Assembly: GCF_001571365.1 (NCBI RefSeq)
Contig: NZ_BCTQ01000007.1
Location: 62,001 to 126,000, forward strand
DNA from: Achromobacter denitrificans NBRC 15125
GTDB taxonomy: Bacteria > Pseudomonadota > Gammaproteobacteria > Burkholderiales > Burkholderiaceae_B
Direction: 5' to 3'
DNA: 64,000 nt
In this document: piece after piece, positions 32,020-58,947 of the stretch
How positions within the stretch are numbered: the first letter of the stretch is position 1
How the letters are laid out: each line of letters opens with the position of its first letter
Made by a program: the position numbers and the translations under genes
The notes under the pieces: generated by a model
The model's database searches: none
What the model was told of the DNA's origin: nothing
What the model saw: only the letters and a program-made list of their open reading frames with translations

Positions 32020-32044
32020 GGAACGCGGACGGCGTTCGCGTTAC
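32020..32044 (+). promoter_or_regulatory. Probable BtrS-dependent (ECF) promoter before the GCL-like gene
   Basis: GGAAC (32020-32024), 14 bases, CGTTAC (32039-32044), followed by TAA. Layout and spacing are identical to the elements that flank the divergent T3S operons at 40.6 kb. The gene start lies about 96 bases downstream. Confidence 0.7.
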
Positions 32045-32139: not shown

Positions 32140-33618
32140 ATGATCGCCCCGGCCGGCCAGACGCTGGGCCTGGAAATGGAGATGGCCGTAGCGCGCCGCG
32201 ACGACGGCGCCAGCCATCCCGTGCAAGGCTACTTCGCGAGGCTGGCGCGCATCAAGGCCGAGCGCGACGAGGCGCCGGACATCTCGCGCATCGGCGGCCG
32301 CGACGTGGCGGTGTCGGTGGCGGCCGGCGAAAGCGGGCTGGACAACGGCTTCAACCTGCTGGAGACGGCGTTCGCGCCGGTCGGCGCGGCCGAAGGCGGG
32401 CTGGCCGAACTGGCCCGCCGCGTCCGGCGGGAACTGGAGGACGCGCAGCGCGCGCTCGCGGCCGAGGGCGCAACCGTGCTGAACGTTTCCGAGCATCCGG
32501 CCTGCACGCTGGACCCGCAATGGTATGCCCGGGTGCAGGTGCCTCGTCCCATCTACCGCGAGCTGGTCGGGCACCGGGAATGGCTGCACCGCGTGGGCAT
32601 CGACGCGAAGGCGCAGAACAGCCCGTGCACCTCGGTGGACGTGCGGCAGGCCGCGCGCGCGCTGAACGTGGTGCTGGGATTGGCGCCGGCCAGCGTGGCG
32701 GTGTTCGCCAACAGCCCGCTGGAGAACGGCCGCGTCACGGGCTACAAGGAAAATCGCCTGACCGTCTGGGACCGCATGTTCCGCCATTCACGCTATGCCG
32801 GCGACCACCGGCTGCAACGCCTGCCGGAACGGCCTTTCGCGGACCTGGGCGATTACTTCCGCTGGATGTTCGGCCCCGGCACCGCCAGCCGTTGCCTGCC
32901 GCTGACGGTGGAGGACGGCTACAAGTCGGCGGTCGGCGTGTATCTGCAAGGCAGCCCTTCGCTGTCGGCGTTCATGGCGTCGGACGGCTGGCCGGGCCTG
33001 CGGACGGACACGGGCGGCGCGGTGACGATGGCGCCGCAAGGCGGGCATTTCGAATACTCGCAGTTCGCGCATTTCCTGGATGCGCGCTGGCGCTACCGGC
33101 TCGCGGCCCATCCCGAACTGGACGAACTGCGCGCCGCGTGGAAGCGGCCGGGCGGCATCGAGGAACTGTATCTCCGGCTGGGCGCCGTCGGCTACATCGA
33201 AGGGCGCGCGCCCGGCGCGGGCTTCGCCGACGCGCAACTGGTCGATGAAGCCGGCGCCGGCGTGGCGGCCACCCTCGTGATGGCGCCCTCGGCCTTGCAG
33301 CTGGGCCTGATGCGCAACCTGGACGAAGCCGAAGCGCTGCTGCGCGAGTGGGGCTGGCTGCGCTTGCGCGACCTGCGCGCCGAGGCGATGCGGCACGCGC
33401 TGGACCACGACGCGGTATGGGCGCTCGCGCGCGACACGCTGGCGGTCGCGGCGCGCGGGCTGGACGATGGCGAACGCCATTGGCTGGACTACGCCGCGTA
33501 TGCCGTCGATGCCCGCAACACCGGCGCCGACCGGCTGCTGCGCCTGTGGCGCGAGCGCGAGGGCGATCCGCGCCGGCTGCGCGCGGTCTGCCGGGCGCGG
33601 GCTGCGATTCCGTTGTGA
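32140..33618 (+). CDS. Glutamate-cysteine ligase-like (GCS2/EgtA-type) protein in the T3S regulon
   Basis: The 492-residue protein has the fold signature of glutamate-cysteine ligases. It has an early acid pair in GLEMEMAVARR, the FANSPLENGRVTGYKENRLTVWDRM region (like the ANSP...G...R..IW motif of plant-type ligases), and HFEYSQFAHFLDARWRYR later. These enzymes join glutamate to an amine such as cysteine using ATP. The ATG at 32140 follows GGGGCGGG; a TTG five codons upstream is possible. A T3S-type ECF promoter lies upstream and a CesT-like chaperone gene follows after 46 bases. There is no extended N-terminal secretion region, so it may act inside the bacterium. The substrate is unknown. 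Confidence 0.75.
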   Translation: MIAPAGQTLGLEMEMAVARRDDGASHPVQGYFARLARIKAERDEAPDISRIGGRDVAVSVAAGESGLDNGFNLLETAFAPVGAAEGGLAELARRVRRELEDAQRALAAEGATVLNVSEHPACTLDPQWYARVQVPRPIYRELVGHREWLHRVGIDAKAQNSPCTSVDVRQAARALNVVLGLAPASVAVFANSPLENGRVTGYKENRLTVWDRMFRHSRYAGDHRLQRLPERPFADLGDYFRWMFGPGTASRCLPLTVEDGYKSAVGVYLQGSPSLSAFMASDGWPGLRTDTGGAVTMAPQGGHFEYSQFAHFLDARWRYRLAAHPELDELRAAWKRPGGIEELYLRLGAVGYIEGRAPGAGFADAQLVDEAGAGVAATLVMAPSALQLGLMRNLDEAEALLREWGWLRLRDLRAEAMRHALDHDAVWALARDTLAVAARGLDDGERHWLDYAAYAVDARNTGADRLLRLWREREGDPRRLRAVCRARAAIPL

Positions 33619-33664
33619 TCCGTTTGCATTTCGGCGCTTGGGGGATGAGGGGAACGAAGGTAAG

Positions 33665-34180
33665 ATGAGCGGCTCGTCCATCCCTATGGCATCCGGGCCG
33701 CCGGCATCTCGCGGCGCCCGGCATGGCCGCCAGCCTACCGTGTCAGATCCCTTCTTCGTGCGGATGCTCTCCGAACTCGGCCAGATGCTGGGCATTCCCG
33801 CGCTGGCGCCGTCCGAAGGCGGGTTGTGCCAACTGGCATTCGACGGCCGCCATCTCGTCCAGATCGTGGAGCACGGCGCGCGCGCGCAGATCCTGCTGTC
33901 GTGCGCGGTGGGCGGCAAGATGGACGCCGCCCAGGCCCTGCTGGCGGCGCAGGCGAACTTCATGCAGGCGGGCGGCGGCGTCGTCGCTTGCGCGGCGCCG
34001 GACGGGCGCATGCACCTGCAGCTCGGCGTCGCGCGCGAAGCGTGCCGCGCCGACACGCTGATGGCCGCGATCGACGCCTTGCTGGTCCAGGTCGAGACCT
34101 GGGAGAAACGCAGCGCGCGCGCCGAACCGGACGTCGATGCGCTGCGGCGCAATCCCGCCTTCATGATGCAGTCGGTCTAG
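33665..34180 (+). CDS. CesT/SycE-like type III secretion chaperone
   Basis: The 171-residue acidic protein contains a class I secretion-chaperone fold: DPFFVRMLSELGQMLGIPALAPSEGGLCQLAFDGRHLVQIVEH, then a beta strand ILLSCAVGGKMDA and a helical tail. Such chaperones hold effectors or rod/needle components before export. The ATG at 33665 follows GAAGG; a GTG at 33740 would give a 146-residue form that starts exactly at the domain. It lies between the ligase-like gene (same strand) and the needle operon (convergent). It may serve a product of that gene or a structural T3S part. Bordetella has a chaperone (Bcr4) for the inner rod protein, but correspondence was not shown. Confidence 0.75.
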   Translation: MSGSSIPMASGPPASRGARHGRQPTVSDPFFVRMLSELGQMLGIPALAPSEGGLCQLAFDGRHLVQIVEHGARAQILLSCAVGGKMDAAQALLAAQANFMQAGGGVVACAAPDGRMHLQLGVAREACRADTLMAAIDALLVQVETWEKRSARAEPDVDALRRNPAFMMQSV

Positions 34181-36206: not shown

Positions 36207-38300
36207 TCATAGATCCACCCGCGCCAGCGGCTGCACGTTGATCTCCTGCGTCAGTTCCTGGTAGGAAAGCACGGGCAGCTCGTAGAGGTCCTGTTCGATC
36301 ATCTTGCGCAGATAGCGGCGGATGTCCATCGAGGTGAGCAGCACGGGCTTCTGGGCCGTGGCGTTCAGGTCTCCGGTCGCGCGCTTGATGTTGTCCACCA
36401 GCTTCTTCGAGGCGTTCGGATCCAGCGCCAGGTAGCTGCCCGCCGAGGTCTGGCGGATCGCGCCGCGCACGGTTTCCTCGACGTTCGGCGCAAGCAGGTA
36501 GGCCGGCAGGATGTTCTGGCCGCTGGAGTACTTGTAGCTGATGTGCCGCTTGAGCGAGACGCGGACGTATTCGGTGAGCAGCACCGAATCCTTTTCCTTC
36601 TGGCCCCATTCGATCAGCGCTTCCAGCACGGCGCGCAGGTTGCGCACCGAGATGTCCTCGGACACCAGGCGCTGCATGATCTCGGCGATCTTCTGCACCG
36701 GCATCACGCGCAGCGCTTCCTTCACCAGGTCGGGGAAGCGGTCTTCCATGGCGGTCAGCAGGAAGCGCGTCTCCTGGATGCCGATGAAGTCGGACGAGTA
36801 TTTCTTCAGCACGAAGGCCAGGTGCCAGGTCAGCACCTGGTGGGGATCCAGGTAGGGGATGCCGGCGGCCGCCAGGGTGGGCGCGAGTTCGGCGCCGGCC
36901 CAGATCGTGGGGATGTTGGGCAGGAAGCGCTTGTCGGTTTCGTAGGGGACTTGCAGCGCCTGCAGGTTCTGCTCGGTGTCGCGCACCAGCACGGCCCCGG
37001 GCCGCAGCTTGCCCTGCGACACCGGCACCTCGGACAGCAGGATGTTGTAGGTGTCCTGCGGAAGCGCATCGTTGAAGCGCAGCTGGATGCCGGGGAAGGG
37101 AACGCCCAGGTCGAAGTACAGGGCGCGGCGGATCTTGAGCAGTTCTTCGTTCAGCTCGTCGGCGTCGAAACTGCGCTGCAGGTGCGCCGCCACGTCGATC
37201 ATCAGCGGCAGAGTGGGCGCGAACTCGGCGCTGCCGTCCGTGCGCGGCTTGGCGGCGGGCTTCTGGCCGTCGGCCGCCAGGGCGGGAATTTCGGTGATTT
37301 CGCCGGTTTTCCCGTCCACCACCTTGCGGGTTCCGCGCAGCAGCACGAAGCCGATGGTGCCCACCACCGCGGCCAGCGCGAGAAAGGTCAGGGTGGGCAT
37401 GCCCGGGATCAGGCCCATGCCCACTGCGATGGCGGCGGCGATCAGCAGCGCGCGGGGCTGGGCCAGCACCTGCGCGCCGATGTCCTTGCCCACGTTGGAG
37501 GGGCCGTCGCCGGTCTGCACGCGCGTCACGATGATGCCGGCGCAGATGGCGATGAAGAGCGCGGGAATCTGCGCGATCAGGCCGTCGCCGATGGTCAGGA
37601 TGGAATAGACCTGCACCGCTTCGCCGGCGCTGAGGTTGCGTTGCATGGTGCCGATGAGGATGCCGCCCAGCAGGTTCACCGCCACGATGATGAGGCCGGC
37701 GATGGCGTCGCCCTTGACGAACTTCATGGCGCCGTCCATGGCGCCGTACAGCTGGCTTTCCTTCTCGACGACGGAGCGGCGCTTGCGGGCCTCGTCCATG
37801 TCGATGGTGCCGGCGCGCAGGTCGGCGTCGATCGACATCTGCTTGCCGGGCATGGCGTCCAGCGAAAAGCGCGCGGCCACTTCGGCCACGCGCTCGGCGC
37901 CCTTGGTGATCACCACGAACTGCACGATGGTCAGGATCAGGAAGACGACCAGGCCCACGATCAGGTTGCCGCCCACCACGAAGTTGCCGAAGGTCTCGAT
38001 GATGTGGCCCGCGTCGCCCTGCAGCAGGATCAGGCGCGTGGTGGCGATGGAGATGCCCAGGCGGAACAGCGTGGTCACCAGCAGCACCGACGGAAACGAC
38101 GAGAACGCCAGCGGCGAGGGCAGGTACATGGCGACCATCAGCAGGATGGCGGACAGCGTCATGTTGGCGCCGATCAGCACGTCCACGAGGGTGGTCGGCA
38201 GCGGGAGGATCATCATGAAGATGATCGAGACGATCAGTATCGCCAGGACGATATCGTTGCGGCTGGTGGCGGCGGCGACGATGCGGTTCAGGGCTTGCAT
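36207..38300 (-). CDS. bcrD: Type III secretion export gate protein SctV (BcrD)
   Basis: This is the large export-gate protein that forms a nonameric ring and handles substrate switching. The 697-residue protein has an N-terminal block of about eight membrane helices (from IVLAILIVSIIFMMILPLPTTLVD to about residue 330) with the conserved FHIPEP-family loop region FSLDAMPGKQMSIDADLRAG. A cytoplasmic domain (about 360-697) follows, ending in VLSYQELTQEINVQPLARVDL. It belongs to the LcrD/InvA/FlhA family. It is preceded by sctY (8-base gap) and followed by sctD, the Yersinia-like order. Confidence 0.96.
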   Translation of the reverse strand: MQALNRIVAAATSRNDIVLAILIVSIIFMMILPLPTTLVDVLIGANMTLSAILLMVAMYLPSPLAFSSFPSVLLVTTLFRLGISIATTRLILLQGDAGHIIETFGNFVVGGNLIVGLVVFLILTIVQFVVITKGAERVAEVAARFSLDAMPGKQMSIDADLRAGTIDMDEARKRRSVVEKESQLYGAMDGAMKFVKGDAIAGLIIVAVNLLGGILIGTMQRNLSAGEAVQVYSILTIGDGLIAQIPALFIAICAGIIVTRVQTGDGPSNVGKDIGAQVLAQPRALLIAAAIAVGMGLIPGMPTLTFLALAAVVGTIGFVLLRGTRKVVDGKTGEITEIPALAADGQKPAAKPRTDGSAEFAPTLPLMIDVAAHLQRSFDADELNEELLKIRRALYFDLGVPFPGIQLRFNDALPQDTYNILLSEVPVSQGKLRPGAVLVRDTEQNLQALQVPYETDKRFLPNIPTIWAGAELAPTLAAAGIPYLDPHQVLTWHLAFVLKKYSSDFIGIQETRFLLTAMEDRFPDLVKEALRVMPVQKIAEIMQRLVSEDISVRNLRAVLEALIEWGQKEKDSVLLTEYVRVSLKRHISYKYSSGQNILPAYLLAPNVEETVRGAIRQTSAGSYLALDPNASKKLVDNIKRATGDLNATAQKPVLLTSMDIRRYLRKMIEQDLYELPVLSYQELTQEINVQPLARVDL

Positions 38301-39099: not shown

Positions 39100-39480
39100 T
39101 CAATCGTCGCGCGCGGCATCGAGCCAGCGCGACAGGTAGTCGACGGCCTGCTTCAGCCGAAGCGCGCTGGCGTCGGCCGCGGCCAGCCGGGTGGCCGCCA
39201 GCAGCCGCGGCAGGCCGTCCTGTTCGCGCAGCGCCGCCTGCACCGGCCAGCCGTCCTGCCGGGAATGATGGGCGCGGCGCCAGGCTTGCATCAGGCGCTG
39301 GGGGGCGTCGTAGGGAACGGGGTCCGAGACGTACACCAGCACCTCGTCTTCCGAGGGCTCGATCGCCACGCGGCGGCCAGATTCCAGTTGCAGCGCCACG
39401 TTGCCGCGGGCGCCCAGCGCCAGTCCGGGCATGCCGATGTCTTCGCCGAAGGCGTGCAGGGCCTGGTCCAGGCTGTTCAT
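39100..39480 (-). CDS. SycN-like type III secretion chaperone
   Basis: The 126-residue protein has a class I chaperone layout: an N-terminal helix MNSLDQALHAFGEDIGMPGL, beta strands NVALQLESGRRVAIEPSEDEVLVYVSD, then helices with LLAATRLAAADASALRLKQAVDYLSRWLDAA. Its position directly after the gatekeeper gene is that of Yersinia sycN, whose product with YscB binds YopN. Its ATG overlaps the bopN stop (ATGA), which indicates coupled production with BopN. A longer upstream frame was rejected because it runs back into bopN. Confidence 0.8.
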   Translation of the reverse strand: MNSLDQALHAFGEDIGMPGLALGARGNVALQLESGRRVAIEPSEDEVLVYVSDPVPYDAPQRLMQAWRRAHHSRQDGWPVQAALREQDGLPRLLAATRLAAADASALRLKQAVDYLSRWLDAARDD

Positions 39481-40580
39481 TCGTATTCCTCGTCGATGGC
39501 GGCGTCCAGCGCCAGTTGGGCGGCGTTCAGGACGGACTGGCGGATGTCGGTGTCGGCGTAGACGGTGACGGGCAGGTCCTTGAGGACGGCGCGCACCCCG
39601 CCCAGGAAGGCGATGCGGCCCTCCACGGCGGAGACGCCATGCGAGCCGGCCAGGCCGGAGAATCGCGACTCGGACACCCACTTTTCATTGCTGACGTTCA
39701 CCAGGTCCTGCATGAGCCGTTCCGACGCGACCGCGACGCCGTGCTCGCGGCCCATCTTTTCCGCCAGCTCCGCGCAGCCCTCCAGCACGGTGACGGCGGT
39801 GCCCAGTTGGTACAGGTCCTGCATCAGGGCCTGGAGGCGGTCGGGGCTGGTGGAGGGGCGCGCGGCGGCGAGGTCCAGCCCCAGCGCCTGGATCAGCTGC
39901 CGCAACCCGCGGCCCACTTCCTGGCCGCCGAAGCGTTCCAGGGCCAGGGCGAGGGTCTTGGCCAGGCTGGACTCGCCCAGCACCACGTCCCGGTAGGTGC
40001 GCTGGAAGTCCGCGACGCCGCGGGCGTCGCCGGCATAGGCGGATGCCGCGCCGATGGTGTTCATGCCGGCGCGGATCTGCGGGCCGCTCTCCAGCTCCAG
40101 GTCGGCCCGGGCCTCGCGCAATGCGTCCAGCACTTCTTCGGAGGCGCCTTCGCTTTCGCCCTGGCGCAGCGCGTACTGCAAGGCCAGGTATTGCTGCGAT
40201 ACGTCGCCGAAGGCCTGGCCCGCGGCCTGGCGCGGGTCGGCCTTGCCGCTGAGCAGATGGCGCGCCAGCTCGATCAGCTTTTCCTGCGCGTCGGCATCGT
40301 GGGTCTCGGCCAGGTAGGCGAGGATGGCTTCGGTGCTGATCGTCTGCATGGGCGCGTCGCCGCGCATCTTGCGTTCCGCGTGGTGCTTGTCTTCCGTTTT
40401 CTCGGCCATGTGCAGACTGAGTTCCTCGGCCGAGTCGGCCAGCGAGAACTCTCCTTCGACCGCGACGGCGGCCTGGCCCAGCATCGTGCCGACCTGCGGC
40501 TGCCCATGCTGGACGTCGGCCTGCGAGGTCATCGAAGAGAAAGCGGAAGAAGAGGGAAGGCCAGCTTCGATACGGTTCAT
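39477..40580 (-). CDS. bopN: Type III secretion gatekeeper BopN (SctW)
   Basis: This is the gatekeeper that delays effector release until translocators are exported. The 367-residue protein has a disordered N-terminal secretion region (about 1-60, Ser/Gln-rich) and a YopN-like helical body (TISTEAILAYLAETHDADAQEKLIELARHLL...). A TyeA-like C-terminus is part of the same chain, so the two Yersinia proteins YopN and TyeA are fused here as in other SctW proteins. It is the first gene of the leftward operon, with an ECF-type promoter at 40626-40650. In Bordetella, BopN also acts as an effector; that cannot be judged here. Confidence 0.9.
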   Translation of the reverse strand: MNRIEAGLPSSSAFSSMTSQADVQHGQPQVGTMLGQAAVAVEGEFSLADSAEELSLHMAEKTEDKHHAERKMRGDAPMQTISTEAILAYLAETHDADAQEKLIELARHLLSGKADPRQAAGQAFGDVSQQYLALQYALRQGESEGASEEVLDALREARADLELESGPQIRAGMNTIGAASAYAGDARGVADFQRTYRDVVLGESSLAKTLALALERFGGQEVGRGLRQLIQALGLDLAAARPSTSPDRLQALMQDLYQLGTAVTVLEGCAELAEKMGREHGVAVASERLMQDLVNVSNEKWVSESRFSGLAGSHGVSAVEGRIAFLGGVRAVLKDLPVTVYADTDIRQSVLNAAQLALDAAIDEEYE

Positions 40581-40625: not shown

Positions 40626-40650
40626 GTAACGGCGGGGCCGGGAAAGTTCC
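40626..40650 (-). promoter_or_regulatory. Probable BtrS-dependent promoter of the bopN operon
   Basis: Read on the minus strand: GGAAC (40650-40646), 14 bases, CGTTAC (40631-40626) followed by T. The bopN start lies about 46 bases downstream. It has the same design as the divergent element 14 bases away on the plus strand. Confidence 0.75.
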
Positions 40651-40663
40651 ATGGCAAATCGAT

Positions 40664-40688
40664 GGAACCAAGGCGGGGCGGACGTTAC
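40664..40688 (+). promoter_or_regulatory. Probable BtrS-dependent promoter of the bsp22/bcrH/bop/bsc operon
   Basis: GGAAC (40664-40668), 14 bases, CGTTAC (40683-40688). It is back-to-back with the bopN promoter, only 14 bases from it. A leader of roughly 110 bases containing a 12-bp palindrome precedes the first gene. Confidence 0.75.
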
Positions 40689-40744: not shown

Positions 40745-40756
40745 AGGGTTAACCCT
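40745..40756. promoter_or_regulatory. 12-bp perfect palindrome in the leader of the rightward T3S operon
   Basis: AGGGTTAACCCT lies between the ECF-type promoter and the first tip-protein gene. It could be a regulator binding site; as RNA the arms are too short for a stable hairpin. Confidence 0.4.
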
Positions 40757-40806: not shown

Positions 40807-41532
40807 ATGTCCACAGTTTCCGGAGCGGGAGTCAGCGGCATATCGGGCATGGACCTGAGTTCGATGGACCTCGAAACCGCGCTGCTGGCGGTGCAGAACC
40901 AGCGTGCCCAGCTGCTGGAGGATGCGCTGCGCCAGCAGCTCGATTCGGTCAATGCCCGCAATGCGGAGATGGCCGGCCTGAACGACTCGATCACCGCCAA
41001 AACGTCCGAGAACAGCAAGCTGGGAGAGGCCAACCTCACCATGCAGCAGCAGATCGCCGACCTGAAGGACCTGCAGTCCCGGCTGAAGGCCAGCGAGTGC
41101 CCGAATCCGGAGGGCTGGTACGGGCTGTCCTGGGGGCAGGGCGACGACAAGGCGCTGTCCCACGCCACGCTGGACCAGATCAAGGCCTCCGGCCTGACGA
41201 TTCCCGGCGGCGCGGACGCGCCGCGCGACGTGGACGGCAACGGCACCATGGACGCCAAGGGGAGGGTGGTGGCCGGCTGGCAGAAGGAGATCGACACCAA
41301 GGTCGCGGCGCTGGAAGAGAGCATCAAGAAGAACTCCTCCACGATAGAAACCAACAAGAACGACATGTCCTCGCTGAAGAACCAGGTCGACGCGCTGGGC
41401 AATACCCAGCAAATGGAGATGCTGCGGTTGCAGGGCATGACCGGCAAGCGCAACGAAGCCTTCGACGTGATGACGAATTTCATCAAGAAGATGCAGGACA
41501 ACCGTTCCAGCATCATCGGCAACATGCGTTGA
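40807..41532 (+). CDS. Bsp22-like type III secretion tip/filament protein, paralogue 1
   Basis: The 241-residue protein resembles Bordetella Bsp22, which caps the needle with a flexible filament. It has an N-terminal MDLSSMDLETALLAVQNQRAQLL segment, long coiled-coil helices (about 35-95) and a middle insertion absent from paralogue 2 (about 97-150). The insertion includes two of the family's rare features: a Cys (ASECPNPEGWYGLSWGQG) and a DVDGNGTMDAKGR stretch that resembles a calcium-binding loop. The C-terminal helix, with NEAFDVMTNFIKKMQDNRSS, is shared almost exactly with paralogue 2. It is the first gene of the rightward operon, with a GGAGG ribosome-binding site. Confidence 0.82.
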   Translation: MSTVSGAGVSGISGMDLSSMDLETALLAVQNQRAQLLEDALRQQLDSVNARNAEMAGLNDSITAKTSENSKLGEANLTMQQQIADLKDLQSRLKASECPNPEGWYGLSWGQGDDKALSHATLDQIKASGLTIPGGADAPRDVDGNGTMDAKGRVVAGWQKEIDTKVAALEESIKKNSSTIETNKNDMSSLKNQVDALGNTQQMEMLRLQGMTGKRNEAFDVMTNFIKKMQDNRSSIIGNMR

Positions 41533-41560
41533 CCCGGCGATCCGCGCCCGCAGGCGGCGT

Positions 41561-41585
41561 GGAACTTCCGGCCCGCCGCCGTTAC
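41561..41585 (+). promoter_or_regulatory. Probable BtrS-dependent promoter of the second tip-protein gene
   Basis: GGAAC (41561-41565), 14 bases, CGTTAC (41580-41585) followed by T. It lies in the 134-base gap between the two tip genes, so paralogue 2 and the genes after it can be transcribed separately. Confidence 0.75.
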
Positions 41586-41666
41586 TCATGCGGCATGCGG
41601 GGCCGGTGCAGCCGGGACCCGGGCGCGATGTCCCGATAACACGGCGCCATCCTTGGAGAGAGAACA

Positions 41667-42269
41667 ATGAGCATCACTGCCACCGGCGCCAACGGCGCTT
41701 CCAGCATCGGCCAGATCGACCTGTCCAGCATGGACCTGGAAACGGCCCTGATGATGGTGCAGGGCGAACGCGTCAAGCTGCTGGACGCCCAGCTGCAGAC
41801 CCAGATCAACGAAGTGCAGCAGCGCAACAACGATATCGCCAAGCTGAACGAGGCCATGAACAGCCTGAACGCCCTGGCGGGCCTGTTCAAGTCCGGCAAG
41901 GACGGCGGCACCAAGATGAAGGACGGCGACATCCCCGACTGGAACAAGGCCGGCACGGAAAACGACGACCGCTACAACCAGATGCGCGACGCCATGTGGA
42001 AGGCGATGGGCGAAGCTGGCATGGACCTGAACACCGACAAGTACAAGCTCAAGGTCGACGACGGCATCAGCAATGTCACCAAGGGCAGCCTCGAAACCGC
42101 CATCCAGGCCATCAAGAACAAGGTGGACGCGCTGTCGAATACCCAGCAGATGGATATGACGCGCCTGCAGGGGATGACCAACAAGCGCAACGAAGCCTTC
42201 GACGTGATGACGAACTTCATCAAGAAGATGCAGGACAGCCGCTCCAGCATCATCGGCAACATGCGTTGA
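41667..42269 (+). CDS. Bsp22-like type III secretion tip/filament protein, paralogue 2
   Basis: The 200-residue protein is close in size to Bordetella Bsp22 (about 205 residues), so it is the better candidate for the true orthologue. It opens with MSITATGANGASSIGQIDLSS and MDLETALMMVQGERVKLL, carries coiled-coil helices and ends with NEAFDVMTNFIKKMQDSRSS. In the last 51 residues only 6 differ from paralogue 1; the middle is quite different and lacks the Cys and the Asp/Gly loop. Tip proteins of this family are secreted early and form the sheath between needle and translocon. It has its own promoter and an AGGAG-type ribosome-binding site. Confidence 0.88.
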   Translation: MSITATGANGASSIGQIDLSSMDLETALMMVQGERVKLLDAQLQTQINEVQQRNNDIAKLNEAMNSLNALAGLFKSGKDGGTKMKDGDIPDWNKAGTENDDRYNQMRDAMWKAMGEAGMDLNTDKYKLKVDDGISNVTKGSLETAIQAIKNKVDALSNTQQMDMTRLQGMTNKRNEAFDVMTNFIKKMQDSRSSIIGNMR

Positions 42270-48864: not shown

Positions 48865-50196
48865 ATGCGCCAGTTCGACTACATCGCCGAGATGATGGGG
48901 CTTGCGCTCCAGGACACCCCCACCTTGCGCATCAAGGGGCGGGTCACGCAGGTGATCGGCACCATCATCAAGGCCGTGGTGCCGACGGTGAAGGTGGGCG
49001 AGGTCTGCATCCTGCGCAACCCCGGCGAGGATTTCGAGATGAAGGGCGAGGTGGTGGGCTTCGCTCGCGATGCCGCGCTGCTCACGCCGATCGGCGATAT
49101 GTACGGCATCTCCACCGCCACCGAAGTCATCCCGACCGGCCGCGCCCACATGGTGCCGGTGGGGCCCGGCCTGCTGGGCCGCGTGCTGGATGGCCTGGGC
49201 CGCCCGCTGGACGAGGCGGAGCTCGGCCCGCTGGAAGCCAGCAAGTTCTATCCGGTGTTCGCCGAGGCGCCCGATCCGCTGAAGCGCCGCATCATCGCCG
49301 AGCCGCTGGAGCTGGGCGTGCGGGCGCTGGACGGCGTGCTGACCTGCGGCGAGGGCCAGCGCATGGGCATCTTCGCGGCGGCCGGCGGCGGCAAGTCCAC
49401 CTTGATGGGCATGCTGGTCAAGGGCGCCGACGTGGACGTCACCGTGGTGGCGCTGATCGGCGAACGGGGCCGCGAAGTGCGCGAGTTCCTGGAGCACGAG
49501 CTGGGCCGCGAAGGGCGGCGCAAGAGCGTGATCGTCTGCGCCACCAGCGACAAATCCTCGATGGAGCGCGCCAAGGCGGCCTACGTGGCCACCGCCATCG
49601 CCGAATATTTCCGCGACCAGGGCAAGCGCGTGCTGTTCCTGATGGACTCGGTGACGCGCTTCGCGCGCGCCCAGCGCGAGATCGGCCTGGCCGCAGGCGA
49701 GCCGCCCACCCGCCGGGGCTATCCGCCGTCGGTATTCGCGACCCTGCCCAAGCTGATGGAGCGCGCGGGCATGAACGAGCACGGTTCGATCACGGCGCTC
49801 TACACCGTGCTGGTGGAGGGCGACGACATGACCGAGCCCATTGCCGACGAAACGCGTTCGATCCTGGACGGCCACATCGTGCTGTCGCGCAAGCTGGGCG
49901 CGGCCAACCATTACCCCGCCATCGACGTGCTGGCCTCGGCCAGCCGGGTGATGAACGCCGTCATCACGCCCGAGCACAAGCGCGCCGCCGGCCGCCTGCG
50001 CGAGCTGATGGCCAAGTACCAGGAGGTCGAGCTGCTGGTGAAGATCGGCGAATACAAGCGCGGCGGCGATGCCGTCACCGACGAGGCCATCGACAAGATC
50101 GGCGCGATCAATACCTTTCTGCGCCAGCGCACCGACGAGCGCGCGACGCTGCCGGAGGCGCTGGCGCGCATGACCGAAATCGTGGGGACGTCATGA
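48865..50196 (+). CDS. bscN: Type III secretion ATPase SctN (BscN)
   Basis: This is the hexameric ATPase that unfolds substrates and detaches chaperones. The 443-residue protein has the Walker A motif AAGGGKST (about residues 172-179), [10 protein letters not shown], Walker [22 protein letters not shown] and [25 protein letters not shown], all hallmarks of the YscN/FliI family. The C-terminal helical domain ([20 protein letters not shown]...) is intact. The stop overlaps the sctO ATG (ATGA). Confidence 0.97.
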
Positions 50197-55151: not shown

Positions 55152-55543
55152 CAGCCCCGCACCCCCTGATTTCCGCCTACGCGCGCCGCCACGGCCTGCC
55201 GGTGCCCGCGCGCGCCGACGGCAGACTCACCGTCGTGATCGACGATACCTACCGCGTCCACCTGCAGGCCGCGCCCGACGGCTGGCTGGCGCTTACCGCG
55301 CGCCTGTGCGCGCTGCCCGCCGAAGGCGCCGCGCGCGACGCCCTGGCGCGCGAGGCCGGCAAGCTGGCCGCGGGCATGCTGAGCCGCCACGCGGCCGGCT
55401 GCGTCGTGGATCCGCAGGGCAGGGCGCTATGGCTGCAACAGACCTTGAGGCCCGACGGCGGCGACCTGGCGCTGGACGAGGCCATCGGCGCTTTCGCCAA
55501 CGCCCTGTCGTTCTGGACGGGCGCGTTGCGGCGGCTGGCATGA
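55148..55543 (+). CDS. bscW: Bordetella-type BscW, CesT-like T3S chaperone
   Basis: The 131-residue protein lies between sctU and the secretin gene, the place of bscW in Bordetella. Despite its name it does not look like the Yersinia YscW pilotin: it has no signal peptide or lipobox. It resembles a class I chaperone (VVIDDTYRVHLQAAPDGWLALTARLCALP...; MLSRHAAGCVVDPQGRALWLQQTLRPDGGDLALDEAIGAFANALSFWTGAL). It overlaps the end of sctU by four bases. The substrate is unknown. Confidence 0.75.
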   Translation: MTAPHPLISAYARRHGLPVPARADGRLTVVIDDTYRVHLQAAPDGWLALTARLCALPAEGAARDALAREAGKLAAGMLSRHAAGCVVDPQGRALWLQQTLRPDGGDLALDEAIGAFANALSFWTGALRRLA

Positions 55544-55581
55544 ACAAGATATCCGGGATCCCTACCCGAGGAGATAGAGTT

Positions 55582-57492
55582 TTGAAGCGGATGATTCTGG
55601 CGACCGCGCTGTCGCTGGGCCTGGCCGGCGGCGCGCCTGCGGCGCCCAACTGGCCCAATGTGCCTTATAGCTATTACGCGCGGGAAGAAAACCTGCAGAC
55701 GCTGCTGCGCGAGTTCGCTGGCGGCTTCAGTCTGTCGCTGCAGATGGGGCCCAACGTCGCCGGCACGGTCAACGGCAAGTTCAATGCCAACACGCCCACC
55801 GAGTTCCTGGACCGGCTCGGCGGGGTGTACGGCTTCAACTGGTTCGTCTACGCCGGCACGCTCTTCGTCAGCCGCACGAACGACATGAAGACGCGCTCGG
55901 TCAGCGCCATGGGCAGTTCCATCAGCGCATTGCGCCAGGCCCTGCAGCAGCTGGGCATCCTGGATCCGCGCTTCGGCTGGGGCGAGCTGCCCGACCAGGG
56001 CATCGCCCTGGTGTCCGGCCCTCCGGGCTACGTGGACCTGGTCGAGCGCACCGTCGCCGCGCTGCCGATGGGCGCCGGCGGGCAGCAGGTGGCGGTGTTC
56101 CGCCTGAAGCACGCCTCGGTCAACGATCGCACCATCAGCTACCGCGACCAGAAGGTGGTGACACCGGGGTTGTCCACCGTGCTGCGCAACCTGATCACGG
56201 GTGGCGGCGGCGGGAACAACAACGAAACGCTGGCGGCCATCGCCGCGCCGCTGCGCGACAATCCGCCCGCGTTTCCGCAGGTCAACGGCGGCCCGGCGGC
56301 CGACAGCGCGCCGACGCTCGCGGCGGCCGGCATGCAGGCCCCGGCGCCGGTGGGCAAGCCCGGCTTGCGGTTGCGCGAACCCACCGTCCAGGCCGATGCG
56401 CGCCTGAACGCCATCATCGTGCAGGACATCCCGGACCGCATTCCCATCTACCGCAGCCTGATCGAGCAGCTGGACCTGCCCAGCACGCTGGTCGAGATCG
56501 AAGCGATGATCGTGGACGTGAACTCCGACCTGGTGAACGAGCTGGGCGTCACCTGGGGAGCGCGCGCCGGAACGACCAGCTTCGGCTACGGCAACCTGGC
56601 GCTCACGCCCAGCGGCGGCCTGCCGCTGGATAGCGCGGCGGGGCTATCGCCCGGCACCATCGGCGTCAGCGTGGGCAGCAACCTGGTGGCCCGCCTGCGC
56701 GCCCTGCAAACCAAGGGGCAGGCCAACATCCTGTCGCAGCCCTCCATCCTGACCGCGGACAACCTGGGCGCGATGATCGACCTGTCGGACACGTTCTACA
56801 TCCAGACGCGCGGCGAACGCGTGGCCACCGTGACGCCCGTCACGGTCGGCACGTCGCTGCGCGTCACGCCGCGCCATATCGAATCGCGCGACGGCGCCCG
56901 CGTCGAACTGACGGTGGACATCGAAGACGGACGCATCCAGGAAGAACGCCAGATCGACAACCTGCCCACGGTGCGCAAGAGCAACATCAGCACGCTGGCC
57001 GTCGTGGGCAACGACCAGACGCTGCTGATCGGCGGCTACAACAGCAGCCAGAACACCGAGCAGGTCGACAAGGTGCCGTTCCTGGGAGACATCCCGGGCC
57101 TGGGCATCTTCTTCTCCAACAAGTCCAAAACGGTGCAGCGCCGCGAGCGCCTGTTCCTGATCCGGCCGCGGGTGGTCGCCATCAATGGCGAGGTGGTGGG
57201 CACGCCCGGCGGCGCGTCGAATATGGCGCCCATGCTGAACGCGACCTGGGGCGGCGGCGATACGCCCATGACGGCGGGGCAGTACCTGGACCTGGCGCAG
57301 AGCCAGCGCACGCGCGTGCTGTTCGGACCCAACGTGGAAGTGCGCAGCAGCGGCGGACCGGTGCGCGCGTCGGAATGGCTGCAGGGAATGCCGACCGCGG
57401 CGCCCCTCCTGGAAGGCAAATCCAGCGCCACGCAAGGGCCGGTGATCCAGGTGGAGCCGGTGGCCGCGCCGGGAACCGGGCGCGCGCCGTAG
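55582..57492 (+). CDS. bscC: Type III secretion outer-membrane secretin SctC (BscC)
   Basis: The 636-residue protein builds the outer-membrane channel. A TTG at 55582, eight bases after GAGGAG, gives a short signal peptide (MKRMILATALSLGLAGGAPA). An ATG at 55540 overlapping bscW would add 14 residues and is an alternative. N0/N1-type domains (YAREENLQTLLREFAGGFSLSLQMGPNVAGTVNGKFN) are followed by the secretin domain (about 335-590: RLRALQTKGQANILSQPSILTADNLGAMI, LPTVRKSNISTLAVVGNDQTLLIGGYNSSQ, VPFLGDIPGLGIFFSNK). No pilotin gene lies beside it. It is convergent with the sigma factor gene (8 bases between stops). Confidence 0.93.
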   Translation: MKRMILATALSLGLAGGAPAAPNWPNVPYSYYAREENLQTLLREFAGGFSLSLQMGPNVAGTVNGKFNANTPTEFLDRLGGVYGFNWFVYAGTLFVSRTNDMKTRSVSAMGSSISALRQALQQLGILDPRFGWGELPDQGIALVSGPPGYVDLVERTVAALPMGAGGQQVAVFRLKHASVNDRTISYRDQKVVTPGLSTVLRNLITGGGGGNNNETLAAIAAPLRDNPPAFPQVNGGPAADSAPTLAAAGMQAPAPVGKPGLRLREPTVQADARLNAIIVQDIPDRIPIYRSLIEQLDLPSTLVEIEAMIVDVNSDLVNELGVTWGARAGTTSFGYGNLALTPSGGLPLDSAAGLSPGTIGVSVGSNLVARLRALQTKGQANILSQPSILTADNLGAMIDLSDTFYIQTRGERVATVTPVTVGTSLRVTPRHIESRDGARVELTVDIEDGRIQEERQIDNLPTVRKSNISTLAVVGNDQTLLIGGYNSSQNTEQVDKVPFLGDIPGLGIFFSNKSKTVQRRERLFLIRPRVVAINGEVVGTPGGASNMAPMLNATWGGGDTPMTAGQYLDLAQSQRTRVLFGPNVEVRSSGGPVRASEWLQGMPTAAPLLEGKSSATQGPVIQVEPVAAPGTGRAP

Positions 57493-57500
57493 CGGGCGGC

Positions 57501-58112
57501 TCAGCCGTCCAGGCGCAGGCCCTTCTGGGCCAGCTTTTCGCGCAGCGCCGAACGCGCGCGCGACAGGCGGCTGCGCACGGTGCCGATGGGCACCGTGAGC
57601 AGCGCCGCGGCTTCTTCGTAGGAAATGTCGTCCAGCCCGACCATGAGCAGGATGTCGCGCATGTTCTCGGGCAGCTCGTCCAGGGACTCCTGCAGCAGGG
57701 CCATGGTCTGGTTCTGCTCGAGGATGCGGTCGGGGGAAAGGTCGGGGGAGGCCTGTTCTTCCAGCACGCTGTCGCTGACGAAGGCGTGGCGGCGTTCGGG
57801 CGCGCGCGACAGGTGATTGCGGACCAGGTTCAGCGCAATGCCATAGAGCCAGGATGACAGCTGCGATTCGCCGCGGAAGTTGCGGTACGAACGGGCCGCT
57901 TCGACGAAGGCCTGCTGGGCCAGGTCCTCGGCCTCGCTGGTATTGCCGATGTGCTTGATGATGAAGCGCTGCAGGCGGATGGAGTGGTCGCGCACCAGAT
58001 CCCGCAGCAGGTATTCGTCGCCCGGGCCCCAGCCCGGCCCTTCTTCGTCGGAGCGAATGGGCGGCATTTCCGCTTCGGAAGAAGCGGGTGTGCTGTCGCT
58101 GGGGTAGGTCAT
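57501..58112 (-). CDS. btrS: ECF sigma factor BtrS controlling type III secretion
   Basis: The 203-residue protein is an extracytoplasmic-function sigma factor. Region 2 is clear (SIRLQRFIIKHIGNTSEAEDLAQQAFVEAARSYRNFRGESQLSSWLYGIALNLVRNHL), as is region 4 (LDELPENMRDILLMVGLDDISYEEAAALLTVPIGTVRSRLSRARSALREKL). Its position next to bscC and the presence of BtrU and a BspR-like protein identify it as BtrS, which switches on bsc genes in Bordetella. It probably reads the GGAAC-N14-CGTTAC elements found in this window. An N-terminal acidic extension of about 30 residues precedes region 2. Confidence 0.92.
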   Translation of the reverse strand: MTYPSDSTPASSEAEMPPIRSDEEGPGWGPGDEYLLRDLVRDHSIRLQRFIIKHIGNTSEAEDLAQQAFVEAARSYRNFRGESQLSSWLYGIALNLVRNHLSRAPERRHAFVSDSVLEEQASPDLSPDRILEQNQTMALLQESLDELPENMRDILLMVGLDDISYEEAAALLTVPIGTVRSRLSRARSALREKLAQKGLRLDG

Positions 58113-58287: not shown

Positions 58288-58860
58288 TCAGGCGGTTTTG
58301 AGCAGTTCGCGCAGCCAGCCCGCCGCGGTTGCCAGGGGAACGGGGCTCTGCCCCGACCGCGCCGCCTGATCGAAGCGGGCTTCCATGGCCTGGTCCAGCG
58401 CGGCCCGCCGCTCGGCGCCCAGGCTCGCGGGCGCCACGCCGGCATCCTTGCAGGCCTGCTGGAACGCGGGGGTATTGCCGGCCGCCGAGGTGGCCAGGCG
58501 CGTCATGAAGTCCACGCCGGACAGCGCGTGGGTGGAGGTTTCGGCCATGTCGATGGCGGCGGCCACGGTGCGCGCGGACAAGGGCTTGCCGGGGCTGGGC
58601 TCCAGGCCCAGCTCGCGCGCGACGGCGCTGGCGATGCCCTGGCCGTAGCTGTGCGCCAGCGTCTGCGCGAACATCGCGGCCGTGTCGACATCCGGGGCCA
58701 CCCAGGCCACGCTGCGGCCGCCGGGCGTGGTGCCGGTGCCCAGCACCTGCAGCCTGCCGCCGGCGATGTCGACGTAGACGTCCTGGCCGCCTTCCGCCGC
58801 TTTGGCGAAGGCATCCAGGGAAGGAAATGGCGACGAAGGGGTAACCGATGAAATTGTCAT
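58288..58860 (-). CDS. Probable BspR/BtrA, anti-sigma regulator of type III secretion
   Basis: The 190-residue protein has the size of Bordetella BspR/BtrA (about 191 residues), the secreted negative regulator that binds BtrS. It has a Ser/Thr/Pro-rich N-terminus (MTISSVTPSSPFPSLDAFAKAAEGG) suited to T3S export and no signal peptide. A strand-rich part (VYVDIAGGRLQVLGTGTTPGGRSVAWVA) and a helical C-terminal half (AVARELGLEPSPGKPLSARTVAAAIDMAE...) follow. It lies directly upstream of btrS on the same strand and has an ECF-type promoter of its own. Homology was judged by size, place and layout; a direct alignment was not possible, so another T3S protein is not excluded. Confidence 0.7.
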   Translation of the reverse strand: MTISSVTPSSPFPSLDAFAKAAEGGQDVYVDIAGGRLQVLGTGTTPGGRSVAWVAPDVDTAAMFAQTLAHSYGQGIASAVARELGLEPSPGKPLSARTVAAAIDMAETSTHALSGVDFMTRLATSAAGNTPAFQQACKDAGVAPASLGAERRAALDQAMEARFDQAARSGQSPVPLATAAGWLRELLKTA

Positions 58861-58922: not shown

Positions 58923-58947
58923 GTAACTCAAGGTCTACTTTAGTTCC
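58923..58947 (-). promoter_or_regulatory. Probable BtrS-dependent promoter of the BspR-like gene
   Basis: Read on the minus strand: GGAAC (58947-58943), 14 bases, AGTTAC (58928-58923) followed by T. It differs from the others only in the first base of the -10 part. The gene start lies about 62 bases downstream. Confidence 0.7.

Follow-up and report, generated by a model that had tools for sequence, protein, structure and literature searches.

A repeated GGAAC-N15-GTTAC element in the type III secretion locus of Achromobacter denitrificans is probably a promoter recognised by the ECF sigma factor BtrS

The present analysis concerns a window (the whole stretch of DNA that was analysed) of 64,000 nucleotides from Achromobacter denitrificans NBRC 15125, whose locus, located on contig C7, is a bsc-type type III secretion system (T3SS). 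It revealed a repeated element, GGAAC-N15-GTTAC, that is very probably a promoter read by BtrS, an ECF sigma factor encoded in the same locus. An earlier note on this DNA had deduced such a BtrS-read ECF promoter from the letters of the window, and this reading of the sequence is supported by half-sites that are conserved against diverged spacers, by a near-fixed spacing, by the co-occurrence of the element with BtrS across genomes and by the elements found in one Bordetella genome. The five copies that the note had listed are all present at the positions and on the strands given there, and each of them, as it had claimed, is oriented toward a gene, 45-118 nt before its start codon. The sites and the genes of interest are as follows:

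40626-40650, minus strand: predicted BtrS-type promoter of bopN/sctW, GGAAC-N15-GTTACTAC, 45 nt before the ATG of 39477-40580
40664-40688, plus strand: predicted BtrS-type promoter of the first Bsp22-type tip gene, GGAAC-N15-GTTACG, 118 nt before the ATG at 40807
41561-41585, plus strand: predicted BtrS-type promoter of the second Bsp22-type tip gene, GTTACTCA, 81 nt before the ATG at 41667
58923-58947, minus strand: predicted BtrS-type promoter of bspR/btrA, with btrS downstream, GTTACTCA, 62 nt before the ATG
32020-32044, plus strand: predicted BtrS-type promoter of the btrM-like and CesT chaperone genes, GTTACTAA, 95 nt before the ATG at 32140
57501-58112, minus strand: btrS, ECF sigma factor of 203 aa (NCBIfam sigma70-ECF)
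58288-58860, minus strand: bspR/btrA, secreted anti-sigma factor (NF052467 BspR family, 255 bits for a cut-off of 160)
39477-40580, minus strand: bopN/sctW gatekeeper gene (TIGR02568, TIGR02511)
40807-41532, plus strand: Bsp22-type tip protein paralogue 1, 39% identical to paralogue 2
41667-42269, plus strand: Bsp22-type tip protein paralogue 2, 42% identical to the tip-type product of the Bordetella genome G083
32140-33618, plus strand: btrM-like glutamate-cysteine ligase family 2 gene (PF04107)
33467-34180, plus strand: CesT-family T3SS chaperone gene (PF05932), start codon uncertain
36207-38300, minus strand: SctV
48865-50196, plus strand: SctN
55306-57492, plus strand: SctC

The BtrS protein of the window is 83-96% identical to that of 13 other Achromobacter, the nearest named loci being those of Achromobacter sp. 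RTa, A. agilis and A. veterisilvae (93-96% identity). The name BtrM was given by analogy with a table of PMC7498569 (this paper and all others are cited here from part of their text). Tip paralogue 1 is 33% identical to the tip-type product encoded beside bopN in G083. The two tandem Bsp22-type tip genes (40807-42269) have one promoter copy each. The site at 32020-32044 has a near-identical counterpart in three other genomes (G002, G022 and G039).

The exact pattern scan gave exactly five matches to GGAAC-N15-GTTAC in the 64 kb window, compared to a mean of 0.05 in shuffles of the window, none of the 100 shuffles reaching at least five copies; the judgement of the earlier note that chance recurrence is unlikely thus agrees with the counts. 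The host genome (6.7 Mb) carries 11 exact copies, five of which are inside the window (binomial tail 3.5e-8). It should be emphasized that the reversed pattern used as a control has six exact copies in this genome. With the exact core at only 11 copies against these six, it is the clustering and the conservation that carry the signal. The whole-genome scan allowing one mismatch, which had been proposed as a check, was uninformative when run: it gave 128 matches against 210 for the reversed pattern, is therefore blind to the signal and was dropped as evidence. The motif signal resides in the exact form and its context. Within the window, a 28-base form with up to two mismatches yielded no additional site, and the N16 form had two one-mismatch matches, which is the chance level. 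Three of the 11 exact copies of the host genome look like chance occurrences: those on contigs C1 and C47 overlap long ORFs and read GTTACG, and the one on C13 reads GTTACA, all three being devoid of the T that usually follows GTTAC.

This T, which the earlier note had seen after the -10 part in four of the five window sites, was indeed recovered there and is preferred (1.0-1.1 bit) in sites that had not been filtered for it. Furthermore, an A is found two bases further on in all 20 distinct plus-strand sites of BtrS loci, and the bopN sites read TAC in the extended part. Taken together, these observations lead to the refined form GGAAC-N15-GTTACTNA, or GGAAC-N15(16)-GTTACTNA with the spacing variant included. 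Only three of the five window sites match this extended form exactly; the two others are the tip-side site, with a G instead of the T, and the bopN site, with TAC. The base preceding GTTAC, given as C or A in the earlier note (GGAAC-N14-(C/A)GTTAC), was rejected as a member of the motif because it varies across species (only 0.3-0.9 bit). In the host genome, the extended form has six copies and its reversed control none, the TNA extension having been derived from the locus sites first and then applied as a filter. When spacers of 10 to 20 bases were allowed (GGAAC-N10..20-GTTACTNA) in 13 genomes, 89 matches were obtained, of which 78 have N15, seven N16, two N18 and two N20, the other lengths being absent. 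The element therefore has the make-up of an ECF promoter, i.e., a GGAAC-type -35 and a -10 separated by a near-fixed spacing.

When the surroundings of bopN were compared at 26 loci from 25 genomes, an exact bopN-side site was found at 23 of these loci. The three exceptions are an N16 form (L141), a variant -10 (L149) and a locus where the gene is split and represented by its 3' half alone (L152). At 14 Achromobacter loci, the bopN-side and tip-side sites each keep all 10 motif columns, compared to only three invariant columns out of 15 in the spacer of each site and 39 out of 140 among the other columns. The tip-side site has the N16 spacing in three Achromobacter species, with the motif intact. 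Upstream of bspR, the survey included 31 named loci (L030-L060) from Achromobacter, Bordetella, Castellaniella and Yanghanlia: the site is exact in 18 of them, has the N16 spacing in two more (L034 and L050), and 11 loci have neither the N15 nor the N16 form. Two of these 11 carry a related form (L046, which is described below, and L052, a GTCAC form), and no bspR-side site was found in nine of the 31 loci (L045, L048 and the seven loci L053-L059).

The element also co-occurs with BtrS. In a family-wide count of the extended motif in 268 genomes, 31 genomes were considered to encode a close BtrS (at least 66% identity). At least two extended copies are present in 27 of these 31 genomes compared to six of the 226 genomes devoid of it (11 intermediate genomes being set apart), and at least one copy in 29 of 31 compared to 33 of 226. 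The Fisher p value of this association (1e-26) is overstated, since the genomes are related and not independent. Among nine genomes encoding a 60-66% identical or partial BtrS-like protein, one has at least two copies and eight, including G083, have none or one; the two genomes carrying only a paralogue type have four and zero copies. The exceptions among the close-BtrS genomes are G105 and G233 (no copy) and G090 and G091 (one copy each); G105 is a complete genome without a BopN match, and the three others are fragmentary. In total, seven genomes (G083, G105, G081, G084, G102, G104 and G233) encode a BtrS-like protein and have no exact N15 extended copy. Extended copies were also observed without close BtrS in G097 (n = 4) and G148 (n = 5). 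The genome with the most motif copies (n = 13), G100, has a BtrS-like match (L119) with a single TAG stop within its aligned part.

A similar picture was obtained with the core motif within Achromobacter. The 14 genomes with BtrS contain 10.1 copies on average (range 6-16) compared to 1.6 (range 0-3) in 14 genomes without it, the reversed control giving 7.1 (4-12) and 9.6 (3-18), respectively; one core copy is shared, in nearly identical form, by genomes with and without BtrS. In 25 Achromobacter genomes whose best BtrS match (about 1e-24) is a general ECF factor, there is a single extended copy in total, compared to six in the host genome alone. The tree of BtrS-like proteins, which has long branches and many weak forks, was kept out of the argument.

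The sigma/anti-sigma pair and the targets bopN and bsp22 are common to the window and to the BtrS (BrpL) regulon of classical Bordetella. In Bordetella, bsp22 and bopN were reported to be BtrS-dependent (PMC7498569), and the element precedes the bsp22-type and bopN genes of the window. The same paper reports that bscC-bscO and bcrD-bscF hardly need BtrS; likewise, no motif copy is found at sctV or sctC in the window. In the Bordetella genome G083 (4,043,846 bases), GGAAC-N16-GTTACTCA is located 33 nt before the bsp22-type gene, and GGAAC-N15-GACACTCA and GGAAC-N15-GTCACACA, both with a variant -10, precede bopN and btrA, respectively. G083 thus differs from the window in having the exact -10 only at the bsp22-type gene and with the N16 spacing; the N15 extended form has no copy in the whole G083 genome, and no motif copy is present in a 2 kb T3SS stretch of it (L233). 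In B. pertussis, btrA and btrS have different expression patterns (PMC7828420), as would be expected if btrA had a BtrS promoter and btrS a promoter of its own; in the window, the 175-base gap between bspR and btrS would leave room for such a promoter. No published BtrS consensus was found in the literature searched, whose coverage does not extend to key BtrS papers in which one may already have been printed. It is absent from the parts covered of PMC7498569, PMC3053399, PMC10732220, PMC3372540, PMC6937331, PMC12282083, PMC7828420, PMC12805831 and PMC12537862.

From the position of the element and its co-occurrence with BtrS, we infer that BtrS itself binds it and that transcription starts there. 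GGAAC would be the -35 and GTTACTNA the -10 contact of RNA polymerase associated with BtrS, the two being separated by 15 or sometimes 16 bases, and transcription would begin a few bases beyond the -10. BtrS would thereby switch on the gatekeeper gene, both needle-tip genes, the btrM-chaperone operon and the gene of its own secreted anti-sigma factor BspR. A feedback loop taken from the Bordetella literature may operate here: BspR, whose own gene has one of these predicted promoters, would retain BtrS as long as it remains in the cell, and its export would free BtrS, so that secretion would raise transcription. In Bordetella, direct contact between BspR and BtrS was disputed (PMC7498569) and later supported by co-purification (PMC10732220). 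Outside the locus, the element would draw likely substrates, chaperones and some autotransporters into the regulon.

RpoE-type ECF promoters have the same -35 GGAAC as the window element and differ from it in their -10. The GGAAC part had been considered in the earlier note to fit what ECF sigma factors in general recognise, in agreement with the -35 of Escherichia coli RpoE, GGAACTT (PMC8103513), and with that of HrpL. The HrpL promoter, or hrp box, is given as GGAAC-N16/17-CCACNNA (PMC4149516) or GGAACC-N15/16-CCACNNA (PMC6647874). It serves, as the window element probably does, an ECF sigma factor dedicated to a T3SS, and both have GGAAC as -35. In hrp-box notation, the window element is GGAAC-N16(17)-TTACTNA, so that both spacings and the AC..A of the hrp box are matched. 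However, the -10 of the window and of most relatives begins with TT where the hrp box has CC and prefers a T after AC, and the sigma factor is another one. The exact N16 hrp box (GGAAC-N16-CCACNNA) has no copy in the window. The window element is therefore not a hrp box by definition, but it looks like a variant of it, with the same -35 and spacing, and would work like one. The bspR site of Castellaniella denitrificans (L046) reads GGAAC-N16-CCACCTA, which is an exact hrp box, 891 bases before the btrS match; this site is possibly a link between the BtrS and HrpL promoters. The signature also suggests that versions of one promoter serve the animal-associated BtrS systems and the plant-associated HrpL systems.

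An alternative that we regard as improbable is that the element is indeed an ECF promoter but has another sigma factor, such as a paralogue of BtrS, as its main reader, or is read by both. The earlier note held that BtrS is the only ECF factor here; it is indeed the only one noticed among the ORFs scanned, which are not all those of the window, but the host genome also encodes, on contig C2 (G000:C2:314004-314534, L157), a BtrS paralogue (54% identity) that adjoins a LuxR-type response regulator. A second T3SS-type ATPase on contig C70 (L237, 16 kb) of the same genome is a sign of a second T3SS. No motif copy is present on the 16 kb of C70 or at the end of C2. Furthermore, G018, G020 and G028 encode BtrS without a listed paralogue match and yet have 12, 12 and six core copies, respectively, whereas G015, which carries the paralogue type alone, has no extended copy. 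For these reasons, the C2 paralogue is not favoured as reader of the motif. G031 nevertheless keeps the idea alive, since its best BtrS-like protein is only 52% identical and encoded in a divergent T3SS locus, and it has four exact extended copies, three of which are in a stretch with CesT-type chaperone genes. These three, at 2346, 3760 and 5564 of L232 (G031:C903), are tandem copies of GGAAC-N15-GTTACTCA.

It is still less probable that the element is bound by an activator or repressor of the T3SS, as two half-sites in fixed register and not as a promoter core. Dimeric regulators likewise bind two half-sites at a fixed spacing, but the half-sites of the element are not repeats of each other, the element is directed at a gene in all five window sites, its spacing is that of the HrpL promoter (PMC4149516), and GGAAC is the -35 of both RpoE (PMC8103513) and HrpL (PMC4149516). 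Chance recurrence in GC-rich DNA, to which we give almost no credence, would account for the absence of one-mismatch enrichment and for the three chance-like copies mentioned above, but not for the conservation in 14 species of a motif whose spacers have diverged, nor for the exact site in most bopN loci, the co-occurrence across 268 genomes and the near absence of the element from shuffled windows.

With BtrS as the favoured reader of the element, the extended motif can be used to predict a regulon outside the T3SS locus. There are 143 extended copies, six in the host genome and 137 in 32 other genomes. The DNA downstream was inspected for 72 of them, some within the T3SS locus, giving 73 rows since one G039 site was counted twice. 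In 61 of the 73 rows, the ATG of an ORF of 140 codons or more is located 5-130 nt downstream, compared to 427 of 1460 random positions of the same loci, the ORF starts being assigned mechanically and some being doubtful. BLAST groups of the downstream products include 13 large proteins, 11 of which were scanned; domains of type V secretion (autotransporter beta-domain, PATR, ESPR or TPS) are present in nine of these 11. CesT chaperones are also encoded downstream of the motif, followed by DUF4135 proteins in two cases and by large proteins without Pfam match in five. DUF4214 proteins and, in G101, an IpgD-type protein were found as well. Elsewhere in related genomes, the motif therefore likely marks secreted proteins, their helper proteins and surface autotransporters.

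In the host genome, three copies precede ORFs whose products have no informative family match: one on contig C8 (66 nt before an ORF of 653 aa), one on C11 (94 nt, 687 aa) and one on C3 (58 nt, 429 aa). Among 43 Achromobacter genomes, homologues of the C8 protein are present in six: the host and four others with BtrS, all five having the motif ahead of the gene, and G031, for which the exact copies listed include none in that position. Homologues of the C3 protein are found in five of the 43 genomes and those of the C11 protein in two, all with BtrS and the motif. The three types of proteins are thus confined, among these 43 genomes, to T3SS-bearing species. They are candidates for secretion, although this is guilt by association and not proof. 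Overall, the strict signature predicts a regulon in genomes with BtrS that includes these three uncharacterised proteins.

We also lean, with distinctly less confidence than for the promoter itself, towards a broader reading of these data. In Achromobacter and non-classical Bordetella, BtrS may act as a master sigma factor across secretion systems: the hrp-box-like promoter GGAAC-N15/16-GTTACTNA would command the T3SS together with BspR, dispersed genes for chaperones and substrates, and type V autotransporters. The motif would then be a DNA key to still unrecognised T3SS substrates of these genera. The BtrS and HrpL promoters would then descend from one T3SS-specific ECF promoter, whose hrp-box form would survive at the Castellaniella bspR site.

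Lastly, a palindrome, GGGTTAACCC, is located at 40746-40755, downstream of the tip-side promoter and ahead of the first tip gene, and is the sole exact copy in the window. It is perhaps the site of a regulator. Its GGGTTAAC part is kept in 13 of the 14 Achromobacter rows, several of which end short of the full palindrome.
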